This document shows positions 13,960 through 62,601 of a stretch of 64,000 bases of DNA, one piece after another (the stretch's first letter is position 1; every line of letters starts with the position of its first letter). Below the pieces are notes generated by a model, which saw only the letters and a program-made list of their open reading frames with translations, searched no databases and was not told the origin of the DNA. The translations under genes and the position numbers were made by a program. The DNA is from a virus: the IMG/VR virus record IMGVR_UViG_3300021964_008599, positions 1 through 64,000 of that record; one strand, written 5' to 3'.

Positions 13960-13962
13960 GAT

Positions 13963-14941: not shown

Positions 14942-16329
14942 TGATTACAATAGGATATAGCACAAAGAAAATAGACCCTGAATTCAGAGATTATATTGAA
15001 AAGTCTTGCGGATTACGTAACGTTGAAGTAATCCCATTCGAGAATCCAGGTACCCACTCATTAACTGAAGCCTACAACATTATCTTAGAACAGGCAAGCA
15101 ATGATATTGTTGTTTTATGTCATGATGACATTTATTTTGAAAAAGGTAATTGGGGTAATAAAGTTATTAAACATTTTAAAAGAAATCCTGATTACGGCAT
15201 TATAGGGGTTGCTGGTTCCAAATATATGCCAAAAACAGGTATGTGGTGGGAAGTTCAAACTGAAATGATTGGGATTGTAAATCATGAACATGAAGGTAAA
15301 AAATGGACATCAAAATACAGTGAGTCTAAAGGTAATAAATTAGATGATACAGTTATTGTTGATGGTCTTTTTATGGTGGTTAACAAACCAAATCTAAAAA
15401 CAAATTTTAATGAGGAAGTAAAAGGATTTCACTTTTATGAGGTAGATTTTTGTTTTAGAAACTTTTTAGAGGGTGTTAAAGTAGGTGTTTTTTATGACGT
15501 TAGGATTACTCATAAATCTATCGGTATGACTAATGAGCAATGGGAAAAGAACAGACAGCAATTTGCGGAAACGTATAAAGAAAATCTACCCATCTTATTA
15601 CCAACAACATTTACAAAAAAAGATGTTAAAAAGAATGAGCCTTTAGTAACATTAGCAATGCCAATTTACAATTACGCAAAAAGATTAAACCCAACCCTAC
15701 ATTCAGTTTTTAATCAAGATTATACCAATTTTGAAATCACGTTGGTAAATGATGGTTCTGATGATGAATATTGTTTAATGAAGTTGGATTCTTTAAAAGA
15801 CCATGATTCAATTCGAGTTATACATAAAGAAAATACAGGAGTATCAGATACTCGTAACCGAGCAGTTAAAGAAGGTAAAGGGGAATATGTTTTACCTCTT
15901 GATGCTGATGATATGATATTACCAGGTTATCTTAAAACTGCAGTAAACATAATTAAAAACAATCCAAAGATTAGTCCAGTATATTGTGATACAATACATA
16001 TCGGGGAAATGCAAGGATTGGAGAAAAGACCTGAGTGGTCAAAAGAAAGACTTTTATCGGGACCTTTTATAGTTAATAGTTCAATGTATTCTCGTGAAGC
16101 ATACGAGTCCACAGAGGGTTATAATACGGAAATGAAAGGGTGGGTTGATTATGACCTTTGGGTTCAAATGATGGATGCGGGTTATGAAGGTAAAAGAATA
16201 CCAAAAGGATTATTTGTTTATTTTCATCACGAAAGTGAAGGTAAAGGTTCGGTATCTACGAGCGCCAGAAACAATATGCAAGAGTTACATAAAACTATTT
16301 TAGATAGACATGAAAATAGAAGCGTTTGA
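14941..16329 (+). CDS. Two-domain glycosyltransferase (GT-A fold, GT2 type)
   Basis: A 462-residue protein with two GT-A modules. N-terminal ~1-215: VVLCHDDIYFE, the D-x-D region of a Glyco_tranf_2_5-like domain, and GFHFYEVDFCFRN. C-terminal ~230-455: VTLAMPIYNYAKRL, ITLVNDGSDDE, YVLPLDADDMILPGYL and WVDYDLWVQM, a standard GT2 domain. Bifunctional glycosyltransferases of this type usually extend polysaccharides or add two sugars in turn. The 3' end overlaps the next gene by 20 bases. Confidence 0.8.
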   Translation: MITIGYSTKKIDPEFRDYIEKSCGLRNVEVIPFENPGTHSLTEAYNIILEQASNDIVVLCHDDIYFEKGNWGNKVIKHFKRNPDYGIIGVAGSKYMPKTGMWWEVQTEMIGIVNHEHEGKKWTSKYSESKGNKLDDTVIVDGLFMVVNKPNLKTNFNEEVKGFHFYEVDFCFRNFLEGVKVGVFYDVRITHKSIGMTNEQWEKNRQQFAETYKENLPILLPTTFTKKDVKKNEPLVTLAMPIYNYAKRLNPTLHSVFNQDYTNFEITLVNDGSDDEYCLMKLDSLKDHDSIRVIHKENTGVSDTRNRAVKEGKGEYVLPLDADDMILPGYLKTAVNIIKNNPKISPVYCDTIHIGEMQGLEKRPEWSKERLLSGPFIVNSSMYSREAYESTEGYNTEMKGWVDYDLWVQMMDAGYEGKRIPKGLFVYFHHESEGKGSVSTSARNNMQELHKTILDRHENRSV

Positions 16330-17131
16330 TGAATTTGGATATATACTTTGGTACTACGCACCAATATCTTACGACGCATTTCTTAAAGGAAAGTTAATTT
16401 CCACTAAAAGTAAAATTGGGACTAAACCTGTATTTTATTTCTCTGAAAATCATACAGAAGATGAGATACATTACGACCCACCCAGACTTAAAAAAACATT
16501 ACAACCTATAGAACATTTCACATCTTGTTATAAAATAGAAGGTCCTTTATTTATCAAAGATAATTGGACACCACCACCATACAAAAAAATATTTAAAAAT
16601 GATGTTTATGTGTATGATAAACCCATACTAACCATTAATAATAAAAACACAAAAGAATGGGGGCAACATCCTCATAATTATTTTAATTCTGATTTTTTAG
16701 ATAAGATTTTTACCGAATTAAAAAGTAAGTATCAAATAATTTATATTAGACCACCAGATAAATCTGAAAATTTTAAATTACAAAAAGACACTAATCAAAT
16801 AAGTTTGGATATTGGTGATAAAGAAATTTTAGCAAAACATCCTGAAGTTATAGATATTGAGACCTTACTACTAAAAAGTGATAAAGTATATAATGAGGTT
16901 CAGTTTATGATATTGTCAAATTCAGATTACCATATAACACCTGCAGGAGATGCGGTTGTTCCTTCTTATTTTGGTGGAGAAGTTTTAATTTATAACTGTC
17001 CTAATTGTAATTCGTCTAATAGAGGTGTATGGAAAACGGGTTCTTGGATGGAAAAATTATCAGGGTCCAAAATATATGGATTTAATAATTACGATAATTT
17101 ACTTAATTACGTTAAAACTAACTGGTTATAA
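16310..17131 (+). CDS. Hypothetical protein of the sugar region, glycosyltransferase-like
   Basis: A 273-residue protein with no motif I can name with certainty. It alternates hydrophobic strands (KPILTINNK, YQIIYIRPP, FMILSNSDYHITPAGDAVVPSY, EVLIYNCP), which suggests a Rossmann-like sugar-transferase domain; the NSDYHIT segment resembles the donor site of some fucosyl- or glycosyltransferases. A C-P-N-C pair occurs near residue 229. It is convergent with the minus-strand cassette, 1 base apart, without an obvious terminator. Confidence 0.45.
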   Translation: MKIEAFDEFGYILWYYAPISYDAFLKGKLISTKSKIGTKPVFYFSENHTEDEIHYDPPRLKKTLQPIEHFTSCYKIEGPLFIKDNWTPPPYKKIFKNDVYVYDKPILTINNKNTKEWGQHPHNYFNSDFLDKIFTELKSKYQIIYIRPPDKSENFKLQKDTNQISLDIGDKEILAKHPEVIDIETLLLKSDKVYNEVQFMILSNSDYHITPAGDAVVPSYFGGEVLIYNCPNCNSSNRGVWKTGSWMEKLSGSKIYGFNNYDNLLNYVKTNWL

Positions 17132-17132
17132 T

Positions 17133-17843
17133 TTATCTTAGATGTAGTGACATATCATAATAATTAGGTTTACATTGTCCTAACCACCATTGCATTTCAG
17201 AAAAACTACTCATATTTGTACCATAAATGTCCGTAGATAAACTACCTAAGTATTGGTCTATTAATATGTCTTGCATACCTTCTACAGTAGTAAAATCTCC
17301 AAATTTTGTTCTTTTAGGTGTGGTATAAACATCGTACTTTTCTTTAATTAAATTTGTCGTTTCAGTGTCATCACAGGTTAATAAAATTTTACCTTCAATT
17401 TTATCCATTACCTTAAAAAGGTTATTTATTTTAAAATGTCTACCCCATGAGTTATATTCCGAAGGAAAACTTCTAAAAGTTCTAACGCTAACTGCACTAT
17501 ATTCACCTAACTTTTCTTTCTCTTCTTTAATTTTATTTGAAATATAATCGATAGGTTCTAAAGTTTTGATAACTTCAATATATCTTTTTTTAAGGTTAAT
17601 AGGTAACTTATCTTTACTTCCTTCATTATGTGTATTCATTTTAGGATGAATAAATTTGCAGTCAGATACACTACTTATGGCATTACCATTATAAATATTT
17701 TTATATAAATCATTAAACTTACATCCAACACCACTACTTGTTGTTATATCCCACATTAAATTAATATTTCCATATTCTACGATTGAAGATATTATACACT
17801 TCATTCGATTGGAAATTCCACCGTATGGTCTGCAATTAATCAT
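17133..17843 (-). CDS. Fucosyltransferase-like protein
   Basis: A 236-residue protein starting with RPYGGISNRMKCIISSIVEY, which resembles the G-G-(L/I)-(G/S)-NR(L/M) motif at the N-terminus of NodZ/O-fucosyltransferase-like enzymes. A later YSAVSVRTFRSFPS could be the conserved Arg motif that contacts the GDP sugar. It is the distal gene of the minus-strand cassette and overlaps the GT-D gene by 4 bases. The phage also has a GDP-sugar epimerase, so a GDP-sugar donor is reasonable. Fold call by eye. Confidence 0.45.
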   Translation of the reverse strand: MINCRPYGGISNRMKCIISSIVEYGNINLMWDITTSSGVGCKFNDLYKNIYNGNAISSVSDCKFIHPKMNTHNEGSKDKLPINLKKRYIEVIKTLEPIDYISNKIKEEKEKLGEYSAVSVRTFRSFPSEYNSWGRHFKINNLFKVMDKIEGKILLTCDDTETTNLIKEKYDVYTTPKRTKFGDFTTVEGMQDILIDQYLGSLSTDIYGTNMSSFSEMQWWLGQCKPNYYDMSLHLR

Positions 17844-18523
17844 ATTTCTAATTGTTTATAATCTCTATGGTAAGACCTACTTATTACCCCAATAAAGGGG
17901 TCCCATATTGAACCAAAATCAATCATGGTACATCTATCTCCAATGACATCATATAACTCATCTACGATAACATTTGTTGCCATAGAAGATGATAATCCAA
18001 ATACAACATCATCATATTTTTCTGTCATTTTTATCATATCATTTTTAATTCTATCTTTATCTAAAAAACAATTTTTAGATGGTATACTAACAAAGTCAGT
18101 GTATTTAATATCTATTTTTTTTAGGTTATCATTTGACACAATAATAAAGTTTCTTTTTTCTAATGCTTCAACTAATACCTTTAATTGTCCGTTTAATGCG
18201 GCATCTTCCCATATACCAGCATTAACCCAATTTATATTTATATTATTCTTTGATAAAAAAGGTAATAATCTATTTAAAATATTACGAATCTGACCGTGGT
18301 CTATATTCCAAATAGCTTTATAATAACCTTTATTGTTTTTTAGCGCAGTATTAAGACCATTTTTTAATTCAGGAAAATATTTGTGATGGTCACAATTTTG
18401 ACCTTTTAACCCCATAGCACAGAACCACTCACCATCACCCCATCGAGTAAAAGAAAAATTCTCATTATTACGAATTTTTTTTATATAATATTCTATTGGA
18501 TTATTTTTAATATCAATATTCAT
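17840..18523 (-). CDS. GT-D type glycosyltransferase (DUF1792-like)
   Basis: A 227-residue protein. The segment FSFTRWGDGEW (about residues 23-33) matches the R-(F/W)-GDGE motif of GT-D enzymes, where the D-x-E residues bind the metal and donor. VFGLSSSMATNVIVDEL and MIDFGSIWDP fit the C-terminal part of that fold. Members add hexoses in adhesin glycosylation and polysaccharide synthesis. Very AT-rich, like the rest of this cassette; overlaps neighbours by 4 bases on each side. Confidence 0.65.
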   Translation of the reverse strand: MNIDIKNNPIEYYIKKIRNNENFSFTRWGDGEWFCAMGLKGQNCDHHKYFPELKNGLNTALKNNKGYYKAIWNIDHGQIRNILNRLLPFLSKNNININWVNAGIWEDAALNGQLKVLVEALEKRNFIIVSNDNLKKIDIKYTDFVSIPSKNCFLDKDRIKNDMIKMTEKYDDVVFGLSSSMATNVIVDELYDVIGDRCTMIDFGSIWDPFIGVISRSYHRDYKQLEI

Positions 18524-18969
18524 ATGTCTAATTTCATTTTAATTGTATTGTCAACATTGTCATGAGGTTTTACACTTATTATAGTAAAATCTAATTTATT
18601 ATAGATATTAATTGCCCGTTTATTAGAACTCAAAACCTCTAAAAAAATTGTTTTAATATTAAACTCTTCTTTTAAATGTTTCATAAACTTTAAATATGAT
18701 GGTTTAGCGTAACCTAATCCCCTATACTTTTTATGTATATCCATTCCAATATATAAGGTATTATTATTCCAGTTAGAGGTTCTAAAATACCCTATATCTT
18801 CATTTAATATTTCAACTATAAAAAATGGAGACTCCAAACTTTTAAACCACTTGACATTATCTTCTAATGTGTAATTATTTTTATCGTGTAAAAACATACT
18901 ACTATGACTTCTAACCTCATTAAAAAAAGGTAAGTCAGATTCAACCATTCTTCGTATTTTTATGTCCAT
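18520..18969 (-). CDS. GNAT acetyltransferase
   Basis: A 149-residue GNAT protein: MDIKIRRMVESDLPFFNEVR start, IGYFRTSNW and TLYIGMDIHKKYRGLGYAKPSY, the latter holding the acetyl-CoA loop (R-G-L-G-Y-A, a variant of Q/R-x-x-G-x-G/A), then IFLEVLSSNKRAINIYNKLDF. It is two genes downstream of a sugar aminotransferase, so N-acetylation of an amino sugar is a likely job. It overlaps the upstream gene by 29 bases. Confidence 0.8.
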   Translation of the reverse strand: MDIKIRRMVESDLPFFNEVRSHSSMFLHDKNNYTLEDNVKWFKSLESPFFIVEILNEDIGYFRTSNWNNNTLYIGMDIHKKYRGLGYAKPSYLKFMKHLKEEFNIKTIFLEVLSSNKRAINIYNKLDFTIISVKPHDNVDNTIKMKLDI

Positions 18970-19435
18970 ATTTTTCTAAAATTTGTTTTGCCGCATTTTT
19001 TTGAGTAGAGACGTTAGTGGCAAGAATACTATTGGGTAATTTTTTAAATTCATTTAATGCGTCTAAATTTGTGATTTCCTTTTCCCACGCAACGGGTATA
19101 AGATTATATTCACCTAACCTCTCTACTCTTTTATTAAAATTATCAAGAACTGTTTTATTATCTTTATGGTGAATAAAATGAAAATTAACATCATCCAATC
19201 TCATAATTGGATATGTTTTTGAAATTGAGTCGTGTTTTAGATATCTACCATTTTTTAAATCTTCATCAATAAACAATGGTTGTTGAGAAATATAATGGTC
19301 AAATTTCTTACACACTTTAATAAAATCACTATCGTCTAAAATTAAATGCCATATAAAAGGATTATTATATTTTATTTCCTTAAGGTGATACAACCAACCT
19401 GAAACACAGCTATTACCCAAAAAAGTATCATTCAT
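18941..19435 (-). CDS. DUF1919-like exopolysaccharide biosynthesis protein
   Basis: A 164-residue protein. The pattern GNSCVSGWLYHLKEIKYNNP, DDSDFIKVCKKFDHY and YPIMRLDDVNFHFIHHKD follows the DUF1919 family, found in capsule and exopolysaccharide loci of many bacteria. Its reaction is not established. It lies between the aminotransferase and the acetyltransferase within one minus-strand cassette, 1 base from the aminotransferase gene. Confidence 0.6.
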   Translation of the reverse strand: MNDTFLGNSCVSGWLYHLKEIKYNNPFIWHLILDDSDFIKVCKKFDHYISQQPLFIDEDLKNGRYLKHDSISKTYPIMRLDDVNFHFIHHKDNKTVLDNFNKRVERLGEYNLIPVAWEKEITNLDALNEFKKLPNSILATNVSTQKNAAKQILEKYGHKNTKNG

Positions 19436-19436
19436 T

Positions 19437-20618
19437 TTACCAACCTTTTTTAATACAATCTACAATATACTCTCTTTGTTCTTTAGTAACCCACCATCCT
19501 ACAGGTATTGAAACAATTTTTCCTATTGTTTTATCTAATGATGGTAATGCGGTTTTAAATTCTTGAACACATGTATGTTTATCATTTCTTTCATGTACTT
19601 GTGATACAGCAATACCACATTCATCCATCCACTTATAAAAACCATCTCTATTATCAACCAACATAGAATAAATCCAAAACGCCGAATCAAAATCTTTTTC
19701 TCTTTTTAATAAAGTAACACCTTTTACGTTAACCAAATTTTCATCATAAAATTTTGCGTTTTCTTTATGTTTACCAACAATTTCTTTAAAATGTTTTAAA
19801 TTTTCTATACCAACTGTTGCACATACATCATTCATGTGAAATTTAAAACCCCATTCTTCAACGTCTGCCTCACATCTAAAATCTTTTCGGTCACCATCTC
19901 TGTCAATACCATACCATCTTAATAATTTCCCTCTTTGGTGAAGTTCTTTATGTGGTGATATAAGTATTCCACCATCTATTGATGTAATATGTTTAATTGC
20001 TTGTAATGAGAACATTGTTAAATTACCATGACTACCAATTTTTTTACCTTTATATTCAGAACCAAAAGAATGTGCACCATCTTCAATAACCGCAGGTTTA
20101 AACCCGAAACGTAAATAAGCATCTTGTTGAATTTTTTTAATCTTATCTAAATCATTTGGATAACCACCCCAATGGACTAACATAATCACTTTTGTTTTTG
20201 AGGTGATTTTTCTTGCCAAATCATCCAAATCCATATTTAATGTGGTTGGGTCAATGTCCACCCATTTTATTTTTAATCCGTTGGCTAAAATTGGCCAATT
20301 AGATGCGGTACATGTCATTGGAGTTGCAAGTACTTCATCTCCATCTTCTAAACCTGGCCAAAAAGAGTTAAATGATGCCACTCCATCAAAAACTTTTGAG
20401 CTCTGATTTGGTTTTTTCAATAGATGTAAAGCTAAATGTAAACCCGAAGTTCCTGCGTTTAGGGTTGATACATAATCATGTTTGAAGAAATTTTTTAAAT
20501 TACTTTCAAACTCTTCAACTTTAGGTCCCTGACCAATGTACCCACTATTTAAAACTTTAGTTACCTCTTCTGAGGCTGTTGGTGACATAAATACTCTGAA
20601 TAAATCTATTTTTTTCAT
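19437..20618 (-). CDS. DegT/DnrJ/EryC1/StrS sugar aminotransferase
   Basis: PLP enzyme that converts a keto NDP-sugar to an amino sugar. Seen: GYIGQGPKVEEFE substrate-entry motif, NAGTSGLHLAL (PLP phosphate binding), VIEDGAHSFGSEYKGKKIG (Asp to the PLP ring nitrogen), and SLQAIKHITSIDGG, where the Lys would form the Schiff base. Length 393 is normal for the family. It leads the minus-strand cassette; with the GNAT gene it would make an N-acetylated amino sugar for glycan synthesis. Confidence 0.9.
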   Translation of the reverse strand: MKKIDLFRVFMSPTASEEVTKVLNSGYIGQGPKVEEFESNLKNFFKHDYVSTLNAGTSGLHLALHLLKKPNQSSKVFDGVASFNSFWPGLEDGDEVLATPMTCTASNWPILANGLKIKWVDIDPTTLNMDLDDLARKITSKTKVIMLVHWGGYPNDLDKIKKIQQDAYLRFGFKPAVIEDGAHSFGSEYKGKKIGSHGNLTMFSLQAIKHITSIDGGILISPHKELHQRGKLLRWYGIDRDGDRKDFRCEADVEEWGFKFHMNDVCATVGIENLKHFKEIVGKHKENAKFYDENLVNVKGVTLLKREKDFDSAFWIYSMLVDNRDGFYKWMDECGIAVSQVHERNDKHTCVQEFKTALPSLDKTIGKIVSIPVGWWVTKEQREYIVDCIKKGW

Positions 20619-20699
20619 ATTGATAATTTTTTATATGAAACATAAGAATCTATTTAGAAAATTAAATTATATTCTAAAATATATTACAAAAAGAAAGCG

Positions 20700-21518
20700 A
20701 TGGTAGTAGGAATTATTGGAAATGGTTTTGTTGGTGAATCTCAAGCATTCGCATTTTCACCAACTAATGAAATAAGAATATATGATGTTGACCCACTAAG
20801 AGCAACACATACAAAAGAAGAGACACATGAGTCTGACTTTGTTTTTGTCTGTGTACCAACACCAATGGATATGGGTGGAAAACAAGACTTATCGTATATT
20901 GAAAGAGTTTTTGAGGACGCTAAAGAAGGTCCGATTTATATTATTAAATCTACGGTATTACCTGGTACCACCGAAATGTTACAAAGACAATATCCTCACC
21001 TTAACATTATATTTTCACCTGAGTTTTTAACTGAAAGAACTGCAAAGTTGGATATGTTAACACAAGCAAGAGTAATCTTTGGTGGTGATAAGTTATTAAC
21101 TGAGAAAGTCGAAGAAATGTTTTCAAAACGATTTATGAATAGACATTTCATACATACCGACTCGATAACTGCTGAGTTTATCAAATACATGAATAATACC
21201 TTCTTCGCCACTAAGGTTTCTTTGATGAATGAATACTACAGACTTGCACAATTAGTTGGTGTTAATTGGGATGATGCATTATACGGATTTGCTTCTGATG
21301 GTCGAGTTGGTGACTCACATTTACACGTACCAGGTCCTGACGGTAAAGTTGGTTTTGGAGGGACGTGCTTCCCAAAAGATATAAACGCACTTATGAACAT
21401 GGCAAAAGATGTGGGTGTAAATATGAATGTTTTGGAATCCGCTTGGAAAACTAATCTTGAAGTTAGACCTGAACAAGATTGGAATAAATTAAAAGGTAGG
21501 GCAATATCGGACAAATGA
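20700..21518 (+). CDS. UDP-glucose/GDP-mannose dehydrogenase family protein, short form
   Basis: A 272-residue NAD-dependent nucleotide-sugar dehydrogenase. Rossmann start VVGIIGNGFVG, FVCVPTPMD, SPEFLTERTAK, EFIKYMNNTFFATK (K162), and the catalytic FGGTCFPKD (C223). The C-terminal NDP-sugar-binding domain (~100 residues in usual ~390-450-residue enzymes) is absent; the protein stops after LKGRAISDK and the next gene starts 4 bases earlier. It may act with the second dehydrogenase, be substrate-altered, or be inactive. Confidence 0.85.
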   Translation: MVVGIIGNGFVGESQAFAFSPTNEIRIYDVDPLRATHTKEETHESDFVFVCVPTPMDMGGKQDLSYIERVFEDAKEGPIYIIKSTVLPGTTEMLQRQYPHLNIIFSPEFLTERTAKLDMLTQARVIFGGDKLLTEKVEEMFSKRFMNRHFIHTDSITAEFIKYMNNTFFATKVSLMNEYYRLAQLVGVNWDDALYGFASDGRVGDSHLHVPGPDGKVGFGGTCFPKDINALMNMAKDVGVNMNVLESAWKTNLEVRPEQDWNKLKGRAISDK

Positions 21519-22675
21519 AAAAGATAGGTATTATTGGAATTGGTAAACTAGGTTTATCATTTGCTCTATTAGTTGAACAAAAAGGGTTCGAAGTATGGGG
21601 TTCAGATATTAGTGAAACCTATATACAATCTTTACGTGATAAATCTTTTAAGAGTAGTGAACCTTATATTGAAGACTACTTAACAAACTCAAAAAACTTT
21701 CATGTAACCACCAGTAACATTGATGTTATTGAAAATTGTGATATCATTTTCACTTTTGTACCGACACCATCATTAGAGTCAGGTGAATACGACCACCAAT
21801 ATATTGAAAGTGTTATTGATGATTTTGACGCAATGTATCAAACAGGATTTGATTTATCAAGTAAAATGTTTGTTGTTAGTTGTACCACTAACCCTGGTTA
21901 CACTGATACAGTAGCAGAAAGATTCTCACAATACGGTATAGACGTTTGTTACAACCCTGAGTTTATCGCCCAAGGTAATATTGTGAACGGATTAAAATAT
22001 GCTGATATGGTATTGATTGGTACATCCTCAATGGAGGAAGTTGATAGAATTAAGGATATCTATACTGAGATAATGGATGAACCTAATTTTAACATTCTTT
22101 CTAATACTGCTGCAGAAATTACAAAAATATCAGTAAACTGTTACTTAACAACCAAAATTTCATTTGCCAACATGATTGGTGAAATATGTCACAACACAGG
22201 TATCGGTGATGAAGTTGATAACGTATTATCATCAATCGGTAGTGACACCCGTATCGGTAAAAAATACCTTAATTATGGTTTTGGTTTTGGAGGACCTTGT
22301 TTACCACGAGATAATAGAGCGTTGGGTGTACATGCCGAAAAAGTAGGTCTTGAGGTAAATCTACCCTTAGAAGTTGACAAATTTAACATTGAACATCACA
22401 AATATTTGGTAAATAAATTGGTGTCTGAAAATCCAAACAGAGATACTAATTTTATCTTTGACTCAGTAACCTATAAAAAAGGTACCGATTTATTAACAGA
22501 GTCACAACAATTAAATCTACTACTATCATTATTAGCTGAAGGATATACTTGTACTGTAGTTGATAATGACAATATTAGACATATTATAGAGAAGGACCTT
22601 AAAAATTTATATAACGATAAGTTTAATTTTATTCAAAATGATACTATTATTGAAGGTATAAGAATAAAATTATGA
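21515..22675 (+). CDS. Nucleotide-sugar dehydrogenase (UDP-glucose/GDP-mannose dehydrogenase family)
   Basis: A 386-residue protein with Rossmann motif KIGIIGIGKLGLS, FTFVPTPS, NPEFIAQG, EITKISVNCYLTTKISFAN (Lys of the active site) and FGFGGPCLPRD (C262). The C-terminal domain, missing from its upstream neighbour, is present here. The pair shares family but differs in sequence, so it is not a recent tandem duplication. Oxidises the C6 hydroxyl of an NDP-hexose to a uronate; the exact substrate is not visible. 4-base overlaps on both sides suggest coupled translation. Confidence 0.85.
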   Translation: MKKIGIIGIGKLGLSFALLVEQKGFEVWGSDISETYIQSLRDKSFKSSEPYIEDYLTNSKNFHVTTSNIDVIENCDIIFTFVPTPSLESGEYDHQYIESVIDDFDAMYQTGFDLSSKMFVVSCTTNPGYTDTVAERFSQYGIDVCYNPEFIAQGNIVNGLKYADMVLIGTSSMEEVDRIKDIYTEIMDEPNFNILSNTAAEITKISVNCYLTTKISFANMIGEICHNTGIGDEVDNVLSSIGSDTRIGKKYLNYGFGFGGPCLPRDNRALGVHAEKVGLEVNLPLEVDKFNIEHHKYLVNKLVSENPNRDTNFIFDSVTYKKGTDLLTESQQLNLLLSLLAEGYTCTVVDNDNIRHIIEKDLKNLYNDKFNFIQNDTIIEGIRIKL

Positions 22676-23760
22676 AAAAGGTAGTAGTACTTGGAGGAGG
22701 AGGATTTATCGGTGGACATCTATCAAAAAGATTAAAAGATAGTGGTCACCACGTAACCATATGTGATATTAAAAATCACGAATATTGGAATCATAAAGAC
22801 ATATGTAATAAGTTCATCAAAGGGGACCTAAGAGACCCTAAAATCGTTTCTGATGTTATCTCAGAAGGTGTTGATGAAGTATATCAGTTAGCTGCAGATA
22901 TGGGTGGTGCAGGTTATATCTTCACTGGTGATAACGACGCCAACGTAATGCACAACTCGGCACTTATTAACCTTAATGTTGTTCACGAATGTACCAAAAA
23001 GAAGGTGGGTAAAGTATTTTACTCATCATCCGCATGTATGTATCCTGAACACAATCAATTAGACCCTGATAATCCAAACTGTAAAGAGTCCTCAGCATAT
23101 CCCGCAAATCCTGATTCTGAATACGGTTGGGAAAAACTATTTTCTGAAAGATTATTCTTGGCGTTTAACCGCAACTACGGATTGGACGTAAGAATTGCTC
23201 GCTTCCATAACATCTTTGGACCTATGGGTACATGGACAGGTGGTAAAGAAAAAGCACCAGCGGCTATGTGTAGAAAAGTCGCGGAATCACAAGATGAAAT
23301 TGAAGTGTGGGGTGACGGTCAACAGACTCGTTCGTTTCTTTATGTTGATGAGTGTGTCGAAGCGGTTTTAAGATTAATGGAATCAGACTTTTTAGGACCT
23401 GTTAATATTGGTTCAGAAGAAATGATTACCATAAATGGACTTGCACAGATGGCTATTGATATCTCAGGAAAAACAATTAAAATTAAGAATATAGAAGGTC
23501 AAGATTTTATCGACAAATACGGTTTTACTTGTCCTGTAGGAGTCAGAGGTAGAAACTCTGACAATAAACTTTATAAAGACAAAATAGGTTGGGAAGTATC
23601 TCAACCATTACGAGTAGGTATGGAAAAAACATATAATTGGATTAATGAACAAGTAGAAGAAAGTAAAAAGACTTATATCTATGAAAGTCCTGATGGTGGT
23701 AAAACAGTATACAGGAGAGGTTTTGGAGAACCTCACGAAACACGTGAATTAATTAAATAA
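22672..23760 (+). CDS. GDP-mannose 3,5-epimerase-like protein
   Basis: Short-chain dehydrogenase/epimerase of 362 residues closely matching GDP-mannose 3,5-epimerase (GME), which turns GDP-D-mannose into GDP-L-galactose. Seen: VLGGGGFIGGHL Rossmann motif, LAADMGGAGYI, SSSACMYPE with the catalytic Cys (C122), YGWEK (Y151, K155), GTWTGGKEKAPAAMCRK with the second catalytic residue (K194), GDGQQTRSFLYVDE and VGVRGRNSDN. All are as in plant GME. The last ~25 residues (from YIYESPDGG) are an added tail. It ends a three-gene nucleotide-sugar operon. Confidence 0.88.
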   Translation: MKKVVVLGGGGFIGGHLSKRLKDSGHHVTICDIKNHEYWNHKDICNKFIKGDLRDPKIVSDVISEGVDEVYQLAADMGGAGYIFTGDNDANVMHNSALINLNVVHECTKKKVGKVFYSSSACMYPEHNQLDPDNPNCKESSAYPANPDSEYGWEKLFSERLFLAFNRNYGLDVRIARFHNIFGPMGTWTGGKEKAPAAMCRKVAESQDEIEVWGDGQQTRSFLYVDECVEAVLRLMESDFLGPVNIGSEEMITINGLAQMAIDISGKTIKIKNIEGQDFIDKYGFTCPVGVRGRNSDNKLYKDKIGWEVSQPLRVGMEKTYNWINEQVEESKKTYIYESPDGGKTVYRRGFGEPHETRELIK

Positions 23761-34038: not shown

Positions 34039-34230
34039 ATGTCATACAGCACCACTACCTATCAACTGATTAAAAAATCTAAGGATTTATCAGAAAAAGT
34101 CATATTAGAAACAGACGCATCTACAATAGAGAGAGCCATGGATTATTTCTACATGTTAAAACCAAAATCTTACGGAAATAAAAAATATTCTATTAGAATT
34201 AAAAAGAGAGAAACGACTCTATCTTATTGA
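34039..34230 (+). CDS. Small hypothetical protein under a host-type promoter
   Basis: A 63-residue basic protein (ends KKYSIRIKKRETTLSY) without known motif. It has its own host-type promoter and an A-rich leader, unlike its late neighbours, so it is probably expressed early. Its 3' end overlaps the convergent cupin gene by 12 bases. Confidence 0.5.
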   Translation: MSYSTTTYQLIKKSKDLSEKVILETDASTIERAMDYFYMLKPKSYGNKKYSIRIKKRETTLSY

Positions 34231-36793: not shown

Positions 36794-38581
36794 TTATCTT
36801 AAAGAGTTCAAATCGAATGTACGTACACCGTCAACAACGATTCTACCGTAGAAACGGTTGTTCACCATCTTCTTAGCGTATCTAGTCATGATACCCTTGA
36901 TTGGTGTGAAGTTGAATGGATTGTACATTGTAGGTGTCAACTGTAATGGTACGTATGGTGCGTAAACGTAACCTGTATCCAATAAAGAAGAACCTTTATG
37001 ACCCATCAATACAGTGTTAGGTGGGAAGTAAGGGTCACGGTAAACTTGGTATCTACCTGATAACGTACCTACTCTCTCAATACCCATGTTGTATTGGTCT
37101 TGGTCTGGTGCTGCGTTTGAAACGTGGAAGTACTCCAAGTCATCAAAGATTGCAGAAATTTCAGAAGAAACTACAATCCAGTTAGCACCACCTCTAAGAG
37201 TTGATTTGTGAATTTGAGCTGAGATTTGGTTAATCGCAGTGATTAACGTTTGGTTCCAGTCTTTTTGGTTGTAGTTAACTGAACCGTTAGATACTCTCTT
37301 CCACCCGTTGTAGTCCCAACGTAATGTCCAAGCTGCACCTTTTCTCAAGTCTCTTAAGATTTCACGGTCAATTTCAGCAGCCACTTGCTCAGACAATAAA
37401 GCTGTCAATTCAGCTTCAGCGTCGATGTTGTGGAATGCAGAAACGTCTTGTGCAAGTTCTGGAGACCATTGTGCTCTTAATTTTCTTTCTGTTACAGAAA
37501 CAGTAACTGCATCAAGGTCGAAAGATACCTCACCGATTTTATCTTCGAATTCCATATCTTGATAAATTCTGTACTTAGCTTTCAATGTGTTATATAGACC
37601 ACTATCATCTGCGAAAGTTTGTCCTGTGTAACCATCCAAAGATGTAGTAGAACCGATAGCTGCAGGTTCAGATACGTCTACAGATAAGTAAATCTTACCA
37701 TCAGCAGTACAGATGTCATCATATTTACCACCTGGGAAACCTTGACCTCCACCAGCAATTGATGTGTCACCCACACTTCCATACTCAACAATACCTTTAC
37801 CGTATTTCTGAGTTACAACGTTAAAGTTGTAGAATACAGAACCACTGTAAACTTGTAATGAAGATAAGAATTCTTCAGTATCCATTTCGTTACCGTTAGG
37901 TCCGATTAATTTACCAGCTCCATCAGATTGGAAATCTGACATTTCAACTAATACTTGTCTGAAACCACCTGTTGGTGTTGTAGACGAACCTGTGTAGTAA
38001 GCATTAGCACCAGTGTTAGTCAATGAAGAACCATCCCAAATTACTGGAGTTAATGTAACATTAGTAATTCCTGAGTAAGCTCCTTTTGAATAATCGAATA
38101 AACCTGCTGGGTCTTCGTTTGGTTCAGAACCTTCATAGAAACGGTCATACAAGTTCTTACCTGTATCGTAGTTTGAATCTGGTGTTGATGGACCATTAGG
38201 TGCTCCGAAAGGTGCAACGTGTGTGTTTAATGAGTCCTGATTTCTGTTTTGAATTTTAGGTACGAAGTAGAACAATTTACCGATTGGTAAGTTCATAGCT
38301 TGTACAGATACGATATCATTAGCTAATAATTTAGAGAAAACTCTTCTAATGATAGGGAAAACAACTGTTTCAAATGAACCTGAGTTATCTGAAGCAGATG
38401 CTTCGTTGATTAAGTGAGAAGCTTGGTTTTCATACAATTGTGCCATGTTCTCTTTGATGTGACCATTAAGACCTTCTAAGAATCCTAATTTGTCCCATTT
38501 GTTGATTGTGTCTTCTTTGATAACTTTCAAGTGTTTTAAACCGATGTTACCAACAAGACCTGATTCTAATAATGCTCCCAT
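36794..38581 (-). CDS. Major capsid protein (gp23-like)
   Basis: Capsid shell protein of 595 residues. The N-terminus (residues 1-60) is a prohead propeptide ending SHLINE, then ASASDNSGSFETVVFPIIRR, so the gp21-type protease probably cuts after E60, as T4 gp23 is cut after E65. FSKLLANDIVSVQAMNLP is the conserved first strand region of gp23. It is the last gene of the head operon, 24 bases after the scaffold gene, and has no late box of its own, so it relies on read-through from upstream. Confidence 0.93.
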   Translation of the reverse strand: MGALLESGLVGNIGLKHLKVIKEDTINKWDKLGFLEGLNGHIKENMAQLYENQASHLINEASASDNSGSFETVVFPIIRRVFSKLLANDIVSVQAMNLPIGKLFYFVPKIQNRNQDSLNTHVAPFGAPNGPSTPDSNYDTGKNLYDRFYEGSEPNEDPAGLFDYSKGAYSGITNVTLTPVIWDGSSLTNTGANAYYTGSSTTPTGGFRQVLVEMSDFQSDGAGKLIGPNGNEMDTEEFLSSLQVYSGSVFYNFNVVTQKYGKGIVEYGSVGDTSIAGGGQGFPGGKYDDICTADGKIYLSVDVSEPAAIGSTTSLDGYTGQTFADDSGLYNTLKAKYRIYQDMEFEDKIGEVSFDLDAVTVSVTERKLRAQWSPELAQDVSAFHNIDAEAELTALLSEQVAAEIDREILRDLRKGAAWTLRWDYNGWKRVSNGSVNYNQKDWNQTLITAINQISAQIHKSTLRGGANWIVVSSEISAIFDDLEYFHVSNAAPDQDQYNMGIERVGTLSGRYQVYRDPYFPPNTVLMGHKGSSLLDTGYVYAPYVPLQLTPTMYNPFNFTPIKGIMTRYAKKMVNNRFYGRIVVDGVRTFDLNSLR

Positions 38582-40359: not shown

Positions 40360-41082
40360 TTAATACCCTAAATAATCGGTTAATTTTTTCATTAAGTCAA
40401 GTGATTTGTCTAAACCACCTGAAGATTCTGCAGAACCGCTTCTTTGTTTAGTTTCTTCTTCGATGTTCTCATCATATTTCATACGGTCATCTTTATTCAA
40501 GAATAAGTACGCACCAGGTGTTGATGGTGAAGAAACAAGGTCAAAACAAATTAATTCAAAATCTTCTTGAACTTCATTACGTTCACCTTTCTTTACTAAC
40601 GAACCTACACCACGAGATGAAACACCCATAGTTACACCTTGTCTCATAAGGTTGGCTGCTTGGTCACCAGGACACGAAACAACACCACCTTGATGGAAAC
40701 CTGGTGAAGTTAATAATTTAATCTTACCCATTAATACATTACCTTCCCACCACATATCAGTGATAAGGTGTGATACACGGTCCAAATCAATCAATGATGA
40801 TTCAGGGTGGTTAAGTTCTGAGATAGATAAACCTTTATCGATAGCTTGAGAATATTTCTCAGCTTCTCTTCTTAATATTTTTTCAGGGTAGATACGACCG
40901 TTTCTGTTTGGTGTGTCGTATTTTTGTAGGACAGCATAAAATTCAAATGGTTTTGAATGGTCTAATTGTCCGTAAGATTCTTTAATAACTTCGGCGTTTC
41001 TTCTATCGTTTGGATTGATAAAACCTGCGTCCCATTCAATCAATATACCTTTACCCGTATCGTTTGGACCTAATATTTTCAT
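40360..41082 (-). CDS. Prohead core protease (gp21-like)
   Basis: Serine protease that cuts capsid and core proteins during head maturation. Seen in the 240 residues: FEFYAVLQKYDTPNRNGRIYP, ELNHPE (catalytic His region), and GVTMGVSSRGVGS with the catalytic Ser. A late-promoter-like box lies 12 bases upstream. Its likely substrates in this window are the (I/L)xE-type N-termini described in the findings. The position before the scaffold and capsid genes follows T4. Confidence 0.9.
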   Translation of the reverse strand: MKILGPNDTGKGILIEWDAGFINPNDRRNAEVIKESYGQLDHSKPFEFYAVLQKYDTPNRNGRIYPEKILRREAEKYSQAIDKGLSISELNHPESSLIDLDRVSHLITDMWWEGNVLMGKIKLLTSPGFHQGGVVSCPGDQAANLMRQGVTMGVSSRGVGSLVKKGERNEVQEDFELICFDLVSSPSTPGAYLFLNKDDRMKYDENIEEETKQRSGSAESSGGLDKSLDLMKKLTDYLGY

Positions 41083-41509: not shown

Positions 41510-41947
41510 TTACACTTTTTCTTTTTTTGTTTTGTGTAAAGTAAAGTATTTTGAATTCATAAGAGGATAGGTATAGATTGTCTTAACGACACTTTTTATT
41601 TTTTCTCTTAATAGTATAGATTTGAATTCCATATGTTCTTTTATAAATAAAGTAATCTCTAAATTCATAAAACTACGTTTACCTATTTGAATACCACTAC
41701 TTCTTAAGTCTAAATCCACAATATTATGTTTTTCAAATATTAATGGGTCTACTGTTTCTAATAAGTGGTGTTTTATATCTCTTTCCATCATCCCCGTCAC
41801 TCTTTTCCAATTTTCCATTTCTTGTGTTGGTTCTACCCAACTTTGTATTACAATGTAGATTGATTTTAATTCTTTGGCATCCACAGTACCGTAACTACAT
41901 TTAGCATTCTCAAAACCTTTCAGTTGTGAGGTTTTACCTTTTTTCAT
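41510..41947 (-). CDS. Hypothetical protein of the head block
   Basis: A 145-residue protein from the ATG at 41945-41947 (MKKGKTSQLKGFEN); a longer frame begins only with TTG. IYIVIQSWVEPTQEMENWKR and SSGIQIGKRSFMNLEITLFI suggest a mixed alpha/beta fold. Unknown function; a conserved head gene by position. Confidence 0.45.
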   Translation of the reverse strand: MKKGKTSQLKGFENAKCSYGTVDAKELKSIYIVIQSWVEPTQEMENWKRVTGMMERDIKHHLLETVDPLIFEKHNIVDLDLRSSGIQIGKRSFMNLEITLFIKEHMEFKSILLREKIKSVVKTIYTYPLMNSKYFTLHKTKKEKV

Positions 41948-42032
41948 ATATTTTCTATTCTCATATAAGTTTATTTGTACAGAAATTATAAACAATAAAT
42001 GGGTCGTAGTCAAAATATTGACTAATTAAAGA

Positions 42033-42040
42033 TATTTATA
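42033..42040 (+). promoter_or_regulatory. Late-promoter-like box before the bS21 gene
   Basis: Plus-strand TATTTATA, 16 bases before the ATG at 42057. Confidence 0.5.
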
Positions 42041-42046
42041 TATATT

Positions 42047-42051
42047 AAGGA
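42047..42051 (+). promoter_or_regulatory. Shine-Dalgarno-like AAGGA before bS21
   Basis: AAGGA lies 5 bases before the ATG. Most genes here have only A-rich leaders, as is usual in Bacteroidota. In Flavobacterium johnsoniae, rpsU has been reported to keep a strong Shine-Dalgarno and to be autoregulated through bS21 occlusion of the 16S tail. Confidence 0.6.
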
Positions 42052-42056
42052 CACAT

Positions 42057-42248
42057 ATGATTATAATAAAAGTAGGAAAAAACGAGAATATTGAACGAGC
42101 ATTAAAACGCTATAAGTATAAGGTTTATAAAACCAAACAACTAGAAAATATTCGTGAGAATAGGTATCATGTAAAAGATACGGAAAAAAGAAGAAAACAA
42201 AAACAAAAAGCCGAGTATATACAAAAAATAAAGGGTTCAGAAGACTGA
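42057..42248 (+). CDS. rpsU: Ribosomal protein bS21
   Basis: A 63-residue bS21. NENIERALKRYKYKVYKT matches the N-terminal helix of Bacteroidota S21 (pattern ENI-x-RALKRYKRK-x-x-KT), and KAEYIQKIKG the C-terminal helix. In Bacteroidota, bS21 with bS6 and bS18 holds the 3' end of 16S rRNA and hides the anti-Shine-Dalgarno. A phage copy could replace the host subunit on ribosomes and shift translation. It is the only plus-strand gene in the head block, has its own late box and SD, and ends in a strong terminator. Confidence 0.9.
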   Translation: MIIIKVGKNENIERALKRYKYKVYKTKQLENIRENRYHVKDTEKRRKQKQKAEYIQKIKGSED

Positions 42249-42258
42249 ACCCTTTTTT
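42231..42258. terminator. Bidirectional terminator after bS21
   Basis: AAGGGTTCAG-AAGA-CTGAACCCTT followed by T residues; a 10-bp stem overlapping the last codons of bS21, shared with the convergent gene at 42279. Confidence 0.88.
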
Positions 42259-42278
42259 ATTACTTATATATTATATTA

Positions 42279-43013
42279 TTACAAACCTTGTTCTAACTGT
42301 CTTAACTTATATAGTGATACTAAAGATACTTCAGATTCATTAATTTTCTCAATAGTTTTTTCAACCTTTTCAGTAAGTTCATCATCAGTAGATTCATTTA
42401 ACTTAGTATTAAGTTTTTCAATAACCACTAATTTAGACTTTTCAATCTCCTCAGTTAATGATTTCTTATCCAATGATAAAAGAGTTTTTAATTCTTGTTT
42501 TTCTTCTTCAGAGATATTTCCAAACTCTCTATTAAATGTGTTTGTTGCAATTTTTAACATAGAACTTAAAGGAATATTAACAGATTCAGATACTGTTTTT
42601 GCAACTTCTTTTTTTGAAATAGTATTTTTAATTCTGTTTTTACTTTCCAATACTTGCTCTAAATTCTTAACACTTGAATTATAAACAACTGAATCGATGT
42701 CTTTGTAATTGTTTTCAGATTGGGTTTTTACATTTTCAGAAACCCACATATTAATCTCTTTGATTTTTTCAGTATTTGAAGAAACAATATTTTTAATAGT
42801 TTCAATACTTTCATTTACATAATCATCAACAATGTCTTTAGATAAACCTTTGTTTTTTGATAGTTCATCATAAAGAAAATATGCTTCGGCAATTCTCTTG
42901 TTTTCAAGAATGTTTTTCTTAAAAGATTTCATATGGTTTTTAAATGATGATTTACCATATGATTCTGTCATTAAAGACTCTATATTAGATTTTATTTGAC
43001 CAAACTTATTCAT
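42279..43013 (-). CDS. Helical core-type protein downstream of the portal
   Basis: A 244-residue protein, nearly all alpha-helical and rich in Glu, Lys, Ser and Asn (ENLEQVLESKNRIKNT type segments). It sits between the portal and protease genes, where T4 has the small core proteins gp67 and gp68, so a prohead core role is likely. The N-terminus NIESLMTESYGKSS has an L-M-T-E site like gp21 substrates. It carries a late box 12 bases upstream of the ATG. Confidence 0.5.
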   Translation of the reverse strand: MNKFGQIKSNIESLMTESYGKSSFKNHMKSFKKNILENKRIAEAYFLYDELSKNKGLSKDIVDDYVNESIETIKNIVSSNTEKIKEINMWVSENVKTQSENNYKDIDSVVYNSSVKNLEQVLESKNRIKNTISKKEVAKTVSESVNIPLSSMLKIATNTFNREFGNISEEEKQELKTLLSLDKKSLTEEIEKSKLVVIEKLNTKLNESTDDELTEKVEKTIEKINESEVSLVSLYKLRQLEQGL

Positions 43014-43033: not shown

Positions 43034-44920
43034 TTACTCATCTAGTAATGTTTTCAATTTGTCTTCAATTTCACCCAAAGATTTACGTCCTTTAGATAGG
43101 TCCAGTTCAGTTATACCATTAATCATATCATCTTCCAATATTAAATTAAGGTCTTTATCTTTAATACTTTCAGGTGTAATATCACCACCCGTATCACCGC
43201 CTTCAGGTGCTCCACCAATATCACCACCAGTATCTGCAGCCTCACCACCTAAGTCTCCACCTAAATCACCACCTAAGTCTCCACCTAAATCACCACCTCC
43301 GAAGTCAGAACCTCCACCACCAAATCCAGTGTCAGCAGGTTCAGTAGTTTCTCCTTCAGGTGCACCACCTTCACCAGGTTTGTTTCCGTATAACTTATCG
43401 ATGTTTGCAAAGATACCTGTCTTAGAAATAACTTCAGGTGTTTTTTCAAGTTCAGAAGCAACTGCTTTCTCAATACGTTGTTGTTGTATGTCTAATTTAA
43501 TTTCTTCATCTGAGAATCCAAGAATGTGTTTCTTAGCCCATGATGATGAAACAGGTTGAATACCGTTTCCTGGGTCAGAAACCGCATCTCTATATAATTG
43601 AATCTTAGTTTGCCATTGCTCAACTTTAAGTAAGTCTGCTTGAGTTGATGGGTTAGTTAATCCTAATGTAAAGTTATTTAACTCATCTTCAAAACCTAAT
43701 AAGTATAAGTGAATGATGGCAATCTTATTCAACTCTTGAATCATAGATTTTTGAATTCTATTGATTGTTCGAGCAAAACGAATGTCTTGTAACGCCAAGT
43801 TTTTACCGTCACCAACAACCTCCTCAAAACCTAAGAATGCCTTTGGTACACGAAGTGCTGTTAATAATTTCTTTTGGATATATTCAATATCTGCAATCTC
43901 TGATAAGTTCTGCGCTCCTGGTAAAGTGTCGATAGGGTTTGGAGCGTTAGGGTCACGAACAGGGATAAAGTAATCTTGGTCTACCGCCATTTGGTTATAT
44001 CTTAAGTCAATATTACCATTATTTGGGTCAGCAATTTGGTCACGTTTAAACTTATTAGCAACTCTTTGTACATACGGTTCAACATCTTTATCGTCCATGT
44101 TACCCACGAATACTTTAAACACCCTTCTTTCAGGTGCTCTCGATGTTCTATAGATTAACATAGCATCTTCAGAAAGGATAAGTTGTTTCCAAATTCTTCT
44201 ACCTTTCTCCAACATAGATGTACCATAAGGAAGTTTACGGTCATCACCTAATAATCTAAAGTGAGCAACCTCCCACGTATTAAATGCCAAATCTTTATTT
44301 TGCCATAAAAACTTAAGTGAGTCATTGTCAGTATCAGATGAATTCCTTTCGGGCTTAATCTTCATACCTCTTTCTTGACGAGTAATCTCAATGTTTGGTA
44401 ATTGTTGAGCACCCATCACACCTTTTTCAGGGTCTAATTTGAGGTAGACAAAATTATCCCCATATTTACAAGTATTTCTTGTCCACATAGGAAGATTAGT
44501 AGAGATATCAAGTCTATTGTTGAATAGGTCAGCAAGGACTGATTTAATTCGTTTGCTTTCTGAATAAATTTGTAATACATATCCGTCTTCATTTGTTGTT
44601 GTTGATTCTTCTGAGTAAATGTCAAGGGCTGCAGAAATCTCAGGAGTATACTCCATACTCTCATAATCATAAAAAGACGCCAGTCTTGTTGGTTCATAAT
44701 AAACAGCTTGAGTGTATAAGTTGTTCTCAATCTTCTGCCATTGTTGACCAAGATATAAAGTTTGTTGTGCTTGTAACTTCTCCCTTTCGTATTCTTGTTT
44801 GTTCGGTGTTTTTAAAAGTTCTTTCTTATCAAACTTAAAAACAGGGGCTTGTTGGTCCAATGTTGAATCGGGACCGAATACCTTAGTAAGACGTTGCCAT
44901 ATTGTATAATTTTCTGCCAT
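43034..44920 (-). CDS. Portal protein (gp20-like)
   Basis: Dodecameric portal through which DNA enters and leaves the head. Of the 628 residues, the N-terminal ~500 follow gp20: WQKIENNLYTQAVYYEP, DIYSEESTT, AHFRLLGDDRKLPYGTSMLEK, RAPERRVFKVFVGN and RVPKAFLGFEEVVGDGKNL. The C-terminal ~100 residues are a Gly/Asp-rich tail with a G-G-D-L repeat (GGDLGGDLGGDLGGDLGG), which is low-complexity and not part of the canonical fold. A late box and GGAG lie just before the ATG. Confidence 0.92.
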   Translation of the reverse strand: MAENYTIWQRLTKVFGPDSTLDQQAPVFKFDKKELLKTPNKQEYEREKLQAQQTLYLGQQWQKIENNLYTQAVYYEPTRLASFYDYESMEYTPEISAALDIYSEESTTTNEDGYVLQIYSESKRIKSVLADLFNNRLDISTNLPMWTRNTCKYGDNFVYLKLDPEKGVMGAQQLPNIEITRQERGMKIKPERNSSDTDNDSLKFLWQNKDLAFNTWEVAHFRLLGDDRKLPYGTSMLEKGRRIWKQLILSEDAMLIYRTSRAPERRVFKVFVGNMDDKDVEPYVQRVANKFKRDQIADPNNGNIDLRYNQMAVDQDYFIPVRDPNAPNPIDTLPGAQNLSEIADIEYIQKKLLTALRVPKAFLGFEEVVGDGKNLALQDIRFARTINRIQKSMIQELNKIAIIHLYLLGFEDELNNFTLGLTNPSTQADLLKVEQWQTKIQLYRDAVSDPGNGIQPVSSSWAKKHILGFSDEEIKLDIQQQRIEKAVASELEKTPEVISKTGIFANIDKLYGNKPGEGGAPEGETTEPADTGFGGGGSDFGGGDLGGDLGGDLGGDLGGEAADTGGDIGGAPEGGDTGGDITPESIKDKDLNLILEDDMINGITELDLSKGRKSLGEIEDKLKTLLDE

Positions 44921-44968: not shown

Positions 44969-46741
44969 TTAAAATCTTCCAAATAACCACGAGTTGTTTT
45001 GATAATCCTGTTTCGTGGCTTCACGGTTTATCCTATGGTGATTAACCCCACCAGGTAATACAGGTACACCTGGATTAAAATCATTAGATGTATTCTTAAC
45101 TGGTGTTTCATTAACCATCCAACTTTCCATCATGGCTTTAGTTTGTTCGGTAACTTTCTCTAATTGTGTAAATGAATTTTCACCCACATAAATTGCCATA
45201 GCAATTGCCATGATAAGGTCATCGTGTTGACCCTTTTGGTGGTCAGGTCTACCATTGACATAGACAAAGGTATTTAACTCGTTTAAAAGTCTCGTAGAAC
45301 GTATTGCAAAGTTATGTCTTAAGGACTCCTCAAACGCAGCAACAATCTGAACACGTTTACTGTTAAAGTTCAACCCTGGTATCTTTTCATTTACCTTTGG
45401 ATTATACTTCCATTTATCAGCAGCATTTACTCCTTCAACATATAAATTTTTATAGTTCATTTCTTGAAGTTTACGTGATGTGGAAACACCCATACCACCA
45501 GTGATATCAATAACAATAAATGCGTTATACATTGTAGCCCATTTAAATGCAATCTCAGCAACAACGTCAGGTGGTACCTTACCTAAGTATTCCAATACCT
45601 GTTCCCTTTCATCAAAGTCTATAATTGTAAATGTCGTGAAATCCTCACTATCACCACGAGAAACGTCAATACCCATAATGTATTTATGACCTTGTACAGG
45701 TTCTTTCCATTGCCATAAGGCACCTCCCATAAATTTATTTTCAGGTTTTCTTATAAATTTTTCTTTAATAACTTCAATCGTTTCATTTGGGATAACGTTA
45801 TCCCCTGAACCCAAGAAGTTACATTCCAATTCCTGTGCGATTTTTCTTCTATCGAATTTAAGTTTTTTAGCCATACCTTCGAACCATGAAGAATAAGCTT
45901 TGTATCCATCTAATAATTTTTCTTTAATCTCCTCATAGTTCCTTTCACGAGGATGTACGTTAGAATAATCTATAGTAATTTCACTGTCGTTATAATCCTC
46001 ACGGTTTAGTAAATAATGAACTATGTCTTTACACTTAATGAGTTTGAAGTCCTTCGCATAACGAGGGTCACGATACCAAAACATTTCAGTTATTTTGAAA
46101 TCGTTCATACCTCTTAAAGCTTGGTCGTAAATGGTATAATAGATAGGGTCAAATCCGTTAGGGGTAGATATTACAATTACTTTACCACCCGTAGAAAGTG
46201 ATGCCATACACGCAGACCAGAAGTCATCATCCGCATCAATAAAGGCTGCCTCATCAAAAATAAGGATTGTAGGGGTATAACCACGAAGTGCATCTTTTGA
46301 TGTCGCAACGGCTTTTACCTCACATCCATTTGATAGTTTGAAATGTCGTTGTGAATTTTTTTCTGCAGAAAATGTGATACCAAACCATGCTGGCCATTGG
46401 TCAACAAAAGACCTAACCTTATTTGCAAACTCCATTGAGGTATCCAATTTGTTTGCAATGATTAGAATTTTCTCAGGTTTCTTTTTAGAGGCAGTAACCA
46501 ACTTTTTAGATGACCACGCAGCGGTAACTGTTGATACACCCGCTTGACGATACTTTAAGGCAATATTTTCCTCATAAGTGTCGTAATCATTAATAAGATT
46601 AATTTGGTCAGGAAATAATTCTAACGGAACGTATTGTGATTGAGTGTTATCGTAAGTTTGTAGATAGGTTTTTAATGCGTAAGGAGTATCTTTTACACAT
46701 TTGGCATATTCCAATAAAGCTTGTTCACGTGATAAACCCAT
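44969..46741 (-). CDS. Terminase large subunit (gp17-like)
   Basis: ATP-driven DNA packaging motor and nuclease, 590 residues. Walker A variant RQAGVSTVT (65-73), Walker B ILIFDEAAF (D163, E164), coupling motif VISTPNG, and nuclease acidic residues in GIDVSRGDSED, FIVIDITGG and GQHDDLIMAIAMAI. These are typical of the T4 family. It is followed by the portal; the tail sheath and tube genes that lie between in T4 are not in this block. Confidence 0.95.
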   Translation of the reverse strand: MGLSREQALLEYAKCVKDTPYALKTYLQTYDNTQSQYVPLELFPDQINLINDYDTYEENIALKYRQAGVSTVTAAWSSKKLVTASKKKPEKILIIANKLDTSMEFANKVRSFVDQWPAWFGITFSAEKNSQRHFKLSNGCEVKAVATSKDALRGYTPTILIFDEAAFIDADDDFWSACMASLSTGGKVIVISTPNGFDPIYYTIYDQALRGMNDFKITEMFWYRDPRYAKDFKLIKCKDIVHYLLNREDYNDSEITIDYSNVHPRERNYEEIKEKLLDGYKAYSSWFEGMAKKLKFDRRKIAQELECNFLGSGDNVIPNETIEVIKEKFIRKPENKFMGGALWQWKEPVQGHKYIMGIDVSRGDSEDFTTFTIIDFDEREQVLEYLGKVPPDVVAEIAFKWATMYNAFIVIDITGGMGVSTSRKLQEMNYKNLYVEGVNAADKWKYNPKVNEKIPGLNFNSKRVQIVAAFEESLRHNFAIRSTRLLNELNTFVYVNGRPDHQKGQHDDLIMAIAMAIYVGENSFTQLEKVTEQTKAMMESWMVNETPVKNTSNDFNPGVPVLPGGVNHHRINREATKQDYQNNSWLFGRF

Positions 46742-62207: not shown

Positions 62208-62601
62208 GGGGGTGAATGGAATTGATTGGCGTAGATAGTCATCGAGGGCACGCAGTGAGACGTTACCTATCACTTTAATCTATGGTTGCAAATTTTAGCT
62301 GGCGAAACTATCGCAAAACTTCAGGCTGTGGGTCTTATCCGCACTGAAGAAGTAACTGTAGCGTAAGACGCAACAGTGAAACGGGTCGGTGGACATATAA
62401 CCTTTGAACAGAAGTCTGTATATGGGAGTCACAGGTCAGAGCTCTCTTAAATAACTCTGAGACCAGGTTGTTTATTGGTTTGTTTCCCACACACATCAAA
62501 CCATTTATTTCGGAATGTTGAGAATCAACATTGACCTAAGCGTGTAGTCCTTTATGGGTGATGCGAGCAAGACGCGGGTTCGAATCCCGCCACCTCCACC
62601 A
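62208..62601 (+). ncRNA. ssrA: tmRNA
   Basis: A 394-base transfer-messenger RNA. Acceptor stem GGGGGTG (62208-62214) pairs with CACCTCC (62591-62597), including the G3-U70 wobble that marks alanine charging; discriminator A and encoded CCA follow (62598-62601). T-arm GCGGG-TTCGAAT-CCCGC (62574-62590). The 5' part TGGAATTGATTGG matches the tmRNA D-loop region, and CTAAGCGTGTAGT matches helix 2 of known tmRNAs. Tag frame from GGC at 62301 to TAA at 62364. An intrinsic terminator follows. It needs SmpB, which is not in this window, so host SmpB is presumably used. Confidence 0.96.
62301..62366 (+). other. tmRNA tag reading frame, 21 residues
   Basis: The resume codon is probably GGC, preceded by TTTTAGCT as in Bacteroidota tmRNAs, where the tag is GETNYALAA. 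Here it begins GETIAKLQ and ends TEEVTVA before TAA: 21 residues instead of about 9-10. The insert folds as a hairpin (CTTCAG-gc-TGTGG ... CCGCA-CTGAAG, 62317-62347). The usual ALAA ending is lost. Confidence 0.85.

Follow-up and report, generated by a model that had tools for sequence, protein, structure and literature searches.

A phage bS21 gene of the Bacteroidota head-block type with a late-promoter box and without the extended Shine-Dalgarno sequence of host rpsU

Whether phage-encoded ribosomal proteins retune translation in the host is an open question, and the Bacteroidota are an apt group in which to ask it, since bS21 there controls access to the anti-Shine-Dalgarno (anti-SD) sequence. 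The stretch of DNA analysed here (the window; 64,000 nucleotides of IMG/VR virus record IMGVR_UViG_3300021964_008599, which totals 66,679 bases) includes a bS21 gene surrounded by genes for the phage head. The original prediction, made from the letters of the window, was that this gene is expressed late and retains a regulatory SD sequence.

The product of the rpsU-like ORF, MIIIKVGKNENIERALKRYKYKVYKTKQLENIRENRYHVKDTEKRRKQKQKAEYIQKIKGSED, matches PF01165 (E 6.3e-13; 48.7 bits against a gathering cut-off of 27), and a PHROGs search also assigns the ORF to bS21. Among solved structures, the best match is the F. johnsoniae bS21 (7jil_z, E 1e-9), with an alignment over the whole length. Tyr54 is found in the window protein and is invariant in all 22 aligned phage homologues; this aromatic residue stacks on A1534 and helps to hide the anti-SD in Bacteroidia ribosomes (PMC9976891, PMC9723584). 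In phage bS21, residue 23 is Val or Ile, residue 27 Lys and residue 28 almost always Gln, whereas those of canonical host bS21 are Phe, Gly and usually Thr. The window gene thus belongs to the head-block bS21 genes already described from Bacteroidota phages. Annotated phage records gave just four distant bS21 matches, all from unannotated huge phages, and the relatives used for comparison are IMG/VR metagenome fragments with inferred hosts. The counts reported below are of distinct sequences and not of evolutionary events, related leaders are not independent, and leader counts in the relatives are somewhat noisy, because each ORF there was taken to start at its first ATG.

Table 1. Position of the bS21 gene, its control elements and surrounding genes in the window.
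Feature	Coordinates	Strand	Remarks
Candidate phage sigma factor for late box, 253 aa	27316..28077	+	Sub-cutoff Sigma70_r2 match, E 0.025
Major capsid protein (gp23-like)	36794..38581	-	PF07068, E 3.8e-73
Prohead protease (gp21-like)	40360..41082	-	PF03420, E 1.9e-23; late box upstream
Divergent neighbour, conserved, function unassigned	41510..41947	-	Present in 46/47 related loci
Dyad TAGTCAAAATATTGACTA	42007..42024		Upstream of late box; GTCAA part conserved at bS21 promoters
Late-promoter box TATTTATA	42033..42040	+	24 nt before bS21 ATG
AAGGA, weak SD-like match (5 bp)	42047..42051	+	5 nt before ATG; not conserved
bS21 (rpsU-like) ORF	42057..42248	+	63 aa, ATG start; Tyr54, Val23, Lys27, Gln28
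Bidirectional terminator hairpin	42230..42255	both	Overlaps bS21 end; shared with convergent gene
Convergent conserved hypothetical head-block gene	42279..43013	-	Own TATTTATA box; present in 45/47 related loci
Portal protein (gp20-like)	43034..44920	-	PF07230, E 1.7e-78; TATTTAT box upstream
Large terminase	44969..46741	-	PF03237, E 1.7e-13

As predicted, bS21 lies on the other strand from the surrounding head genes: the T4-type large terminase (TerL), portal, prohead protease and major capsid protein (MCP) genes identified by Pfam and PHROGs are all on the minus strand. Both neighbours of bS21 are likewise on the strand opposite to it in 46 of the 46 related IMG/VR loci where both are visible, and the divergent neighbour, where present, lies ~100–160 nt upstream of bS21. 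A PHROG search with the product of the divergent gene returned no match and Pfam a sub-cutoff match only; the gene may correspond to bS21_CN of Chen et al. A bS21 gene on the reverse strand inside the same TerL/portal/protease/MCP block was described in Bacteroidetes phages by Chen et al. 2022 (PMC9723584), who also reported that bS21 is expressed late and that residue 54 is conserved as an aromatic, and who proposed that the protein redirects host ribosomes. The layout, the host group, late expression and the proposal of ribosome retuning were therefore already published in 2022. Elsewhere in the window, a run of sugar genes (12053–23760) encodes glycosyltransferases, an aminotransferase, a UDP-glucose dehydrogenase and a nucleotide-sugar epimerase, and a tmRNA gene with the tag GETIAKLQAVGLIRTEEVTVA is located at 62208–62601 on the plus strand.

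The late box ahead of bS21 belongs to a strongly enriched class, in agreement with the original prediction. In gene direction, TATTTAT is found 8–32 nt ahead of 12 of the 69 window genes (0.38 expected), and the opposite orientation, TATAAAT, ahead of one; TATTTATA precedes 10 of the 69 genes and TATAAATA none. The genes with TATTTAT include those for the portal and protease, the convergent gene, a gene matching tail proteins and an endolysin-like gene. Among 46 representative bS21 homologues, 43 have the box in the leader, usually at 24 nt, and it is found before 141 of 353 other genes in 47 related loci, where its first base is most often exactly 20 nt before the ATG. In the cultured phage immuto of Flavobacterium sp. 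LMO8, it lies ahead of the terminase and portal genes, among others. A literature search for TATTTATA as a phage late promoter gave nothing relevant. Probable late timing of the window gene is supported by the sharing of the box with head genes and by the late expression of bS21 in related phages (PMC9723584).

Nearly all other late genes have an AA located 12–13 nt from the start of the box, however far away the ATG is; the AA is therefore tied to the box, and may mark the transcription start. This spacing between box and putative start matches that of T4 late promoters. Predicted leaders would then be ~7–8 nt for most late genes and ~10–13 nt for bS21; the mean leader in F. johnsoniae is 33 nt (PMC6847099). 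The strong terminator expected after bS21 is present as well, being predicted on both strands with a folding energy of -15.2 kcal/mol, and a comparable hairpin occurs in 28 of 48 loci. One terminator serving two convergent genes is ordinary. Matches to sigma-70 promoters at ~42013–42046 were discounted because the region has fewer of them than its shuffles (61 versus 78.6).

Of 36 bS21 leaders, 32 have the GTCAA part of the dyad ≤30 nt ahead of the box, as compared with 5 among 117 other late genes (loci L002–L160). This GTCAA(AA) element may act as an operator specific to bS21, or may belong to the promoter of the divergent gene. The 253-aa product listed in Table 1 has counterparts of 61–89% identity in five related phages, likewise with sub-cutoff Sigma70_r2 matches, and a fold search with it gave mostly sigma factors, at non-significant scores. 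These matches are suggestive only, and point to a candidate late sigma factor able to read the late box. A different element, TATATTTG (host sigma-A -7 consensus TANNTTTG), precedes the window genes at 34039, 53692 and 55772 and also those at 58790 and 60249; the set includes a Clp-like ATPase and a peptidase, and is probably an early class. In one phage clade (L050, L060 and L080), TTG-N18-TATATTTG is, by eye, apparently located upstream of the bS21 late box, and this host-type promoter suggests that bS21 may be expressed early as well as late in that clade.

SD strength was scored as the best continuous helix between the 20–25 nt before the start codon and nt 1532–1544 of 16S rRNA (UCACCUCCUUUCU); the energies are summed stacking energies somewhat off the published scale, and the host, hence its anti-SD, is inferred. 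The AAGGA sequence named in the original prediction is present before the ATG. With 5 bp and -8.6 kcal/mol, it ranks 4th among the 69 window genes, below the AAAGGAG of the portal gene (7 bp, -11.6 kcal/mol), and is equalled or beaten in 14 of 69 mock windows. The nearest relative (L007, with a 94% identical protein) has AACCA in its place, and AAGGA is missing from most phage bS21 homologues. Three leaders from the clade that includes the window do have AAGGA, and the bS21 leaders of L078 and L079 have a 7-bp SD-like site; some SD use by phage bS21 leaders is therefore possible. As a group, the distinct phage bS21 leaders are no different from other phage genes, with 4 of 35 versus 11 of 254 at ≤ -8.6 kcal/mol (Fisher p 0.09, Mann-Whitney p 0.43). 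SD-like matches are rarer ahead of the other phage genes (4%) than in mock windows (21%), which fits a phage adapted to SD-blind ribosomes.

Host rpsU behaves differently in the same scan. The canonical rpsU of 14 Flavobacteriaceae-type genes pairs over 11–12 bp at -21 to -24 kcal/mol, and host-type extended SD sequences overall cover 10–13 bp at -19 to -26 kcal/mol. An extended SD of the kind found in autoregulated rpsU (stronger than -13 kcal/mol) is absent from the window gene and from all 35 distinct phage leaders, none of which reaches -13. The distance between AAGGA and the ATG is ~11 nt in host rpsU versus 5 nt here, i.e. ~6 nt too close, and the window AAGGA is probably non-functional as an SD. 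A Chryseobacterium-type anti-SD (UCUCA), which needs UGAGA, was also considered; by inspection, the leader has no TGAGA.

The extended SD follows the type of bS21 protein. Among 69 bacterial loci, it is found (≤ -13 kcal/mol) in 48 of 49 with a Phe23-type protein and in 0 of 20 others. At least two bS21 genes above the cut-off occur in ~35 of 80 Flavobacteriaceae genomes, and in 20 of 20 two-copy genomes (loci L161–L259) exactly one rpsU has the extended SD, the copy without it being non-Phe23. The first genome scan was biased toward Val23 proteins by the search pattern, and the family sample was therefore drawn separately. An origin of phage bS21 from the host paralogue was considered. In a 64-column tree, phage, canonical and paralogous proteins are almost fully separated but the deep branches are weakly supported, and the mean scores are nearly equal (134 versus 138). 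Phage bS21 is like the SD-less type both in its leader and in the residues above; the alignment has too few columns to tell whether the two share an ancestor.

In F. johnsoniae, the extended SD of rpsU makes ribosomes that lack bS21 favour this message specifically, and the same ribosomes are impaired on mRNAs with no SD (McNutt et al. 2023, PMC9976891). The reading that we prefer, with a probability of roughly 0.65, is that the phage makes a late, feedback-blind bS21 that would keep ribosomes SD-blind and fit for its own SD-less, short-leader messages. The late transcript would start from a TATTTATA promoter of the gene's own, be short, cover bS21 alone and stop at the shared hairpin. As this mRNA has no extended SD, it should be translated by ordinary ribosomes, which are SD-blind and replete with bS21, and feedback should not limit the yield of protein. 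The protein would then replace or supplement host bS21 in ribosomes; since Tyr54 is kept, the anti-SD should stay hidden and the ribosomes should remain competent for SD-less messages, a class to which the phage late messages belong. The N-terminal helix is changed at Val23, Lys27 and Gln28, which may alter mRNA choice. Without a regulatory SD, the phage gene probably stands outside host feedback, which reverses the earlier idea. A wider proposal, tentative and on balance doubtful, places phage bS21 in one class with the second, SD-less bS21 of Flavobacteriaceae: an alternative, feedback-blind bS21 (non-Phe23, mostly Lys27) that would make specialised ribosomes, and that the phage would deploy late to favour its SD-less messages with their unusually short leaders (~7–13 nt predicted).

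The alternative put forward originally, that AAGGA is a retained regulatory SD through which bS21-depleted ribosomes autoregulate the phage gene like host rpsU, is very improbable. AAGGA does pair with the 16S tail and recurs in the window's clade, but the helix has 5 bp versus 10–13 bp in host rpsU, is ill-spaced, gives way to AACCA in the closest relative and is outdone ahead of the portal gene; this part of the prediction is not upheld. The conserved link with the unassigned divergent gene, and virion packaging as raised by Chen et al. (PMC9723584), would favour a role off the ribosome, with late expression explained by a function as regulator, RNA binder or virion component. Such a role is unlikely, as the ribosome-contact residue Tyr54 is invariant and the bS21 of a Pelagibacter phage is reported to be incorporated into E. 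coli ribosomes (PMC9723584, PMC9976891).

Dosage supplementation, by which phage bS21 would replace lost or limiting host bS21 late in infection with mRNA choice unchanged, is a reasonable possibility that falls short of an even chance. It agrees with the retention of Tyr54 and most of the fold and with the poor initiation of bS21-lacking ribosomes on SD-less mRNAs (PMC9976891). However, residues 23, 27 and 28 consistently differ from those of the canonical host protein, which suggests more than a copy. Dosage also overlaps with the preferred reading of a late, feedback-blind bS21, since the latter leaves mRNA choice open.

The window phage resembles the myophages of Chen et al. 2022 in a bS21 gene on the other strand from the head genes, conserved flanking hypothetical genes and an aromatic residue 54; late expression was recorded for those phages, and the window gene shares its late box with head genes. 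The main text of that study is without promoter, terminator or autoregulation, and treats Shine-Dalgarno sequences as background only, whereas the promoter box, the short predicted leader and the absence of a host-type SD were measured here. Like the T4 late promoters (TATAAATA, gp55), the box is a single motif in a single orientation ahead of individual late genes. Unlike in T4, the motif reads as the reverse complement, TATTTATA, along the genes, and the counterpart of gp55 is a candidate. The autoregulated rpsU of F. johnsoniae (PMC9976891) shares with the phage gene the protein family, Tyr54 and an SD-poor genome, but has the extended SD, with Phe23, Gly27 and Thr28 in place of Val23, Lys27 and Gln28. 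The second, SD-less bS21 that is frequent in Flavobacteriaceae is like phage bS21 in being non-Phe23, usually with Lys27, and in having no extended SD; it differs in being cellular and in residue 23, which is mostly His in the family sample and mostly Val in the pattern-selected sample. This second bS21 provides a cellular parallel to the phage protein.
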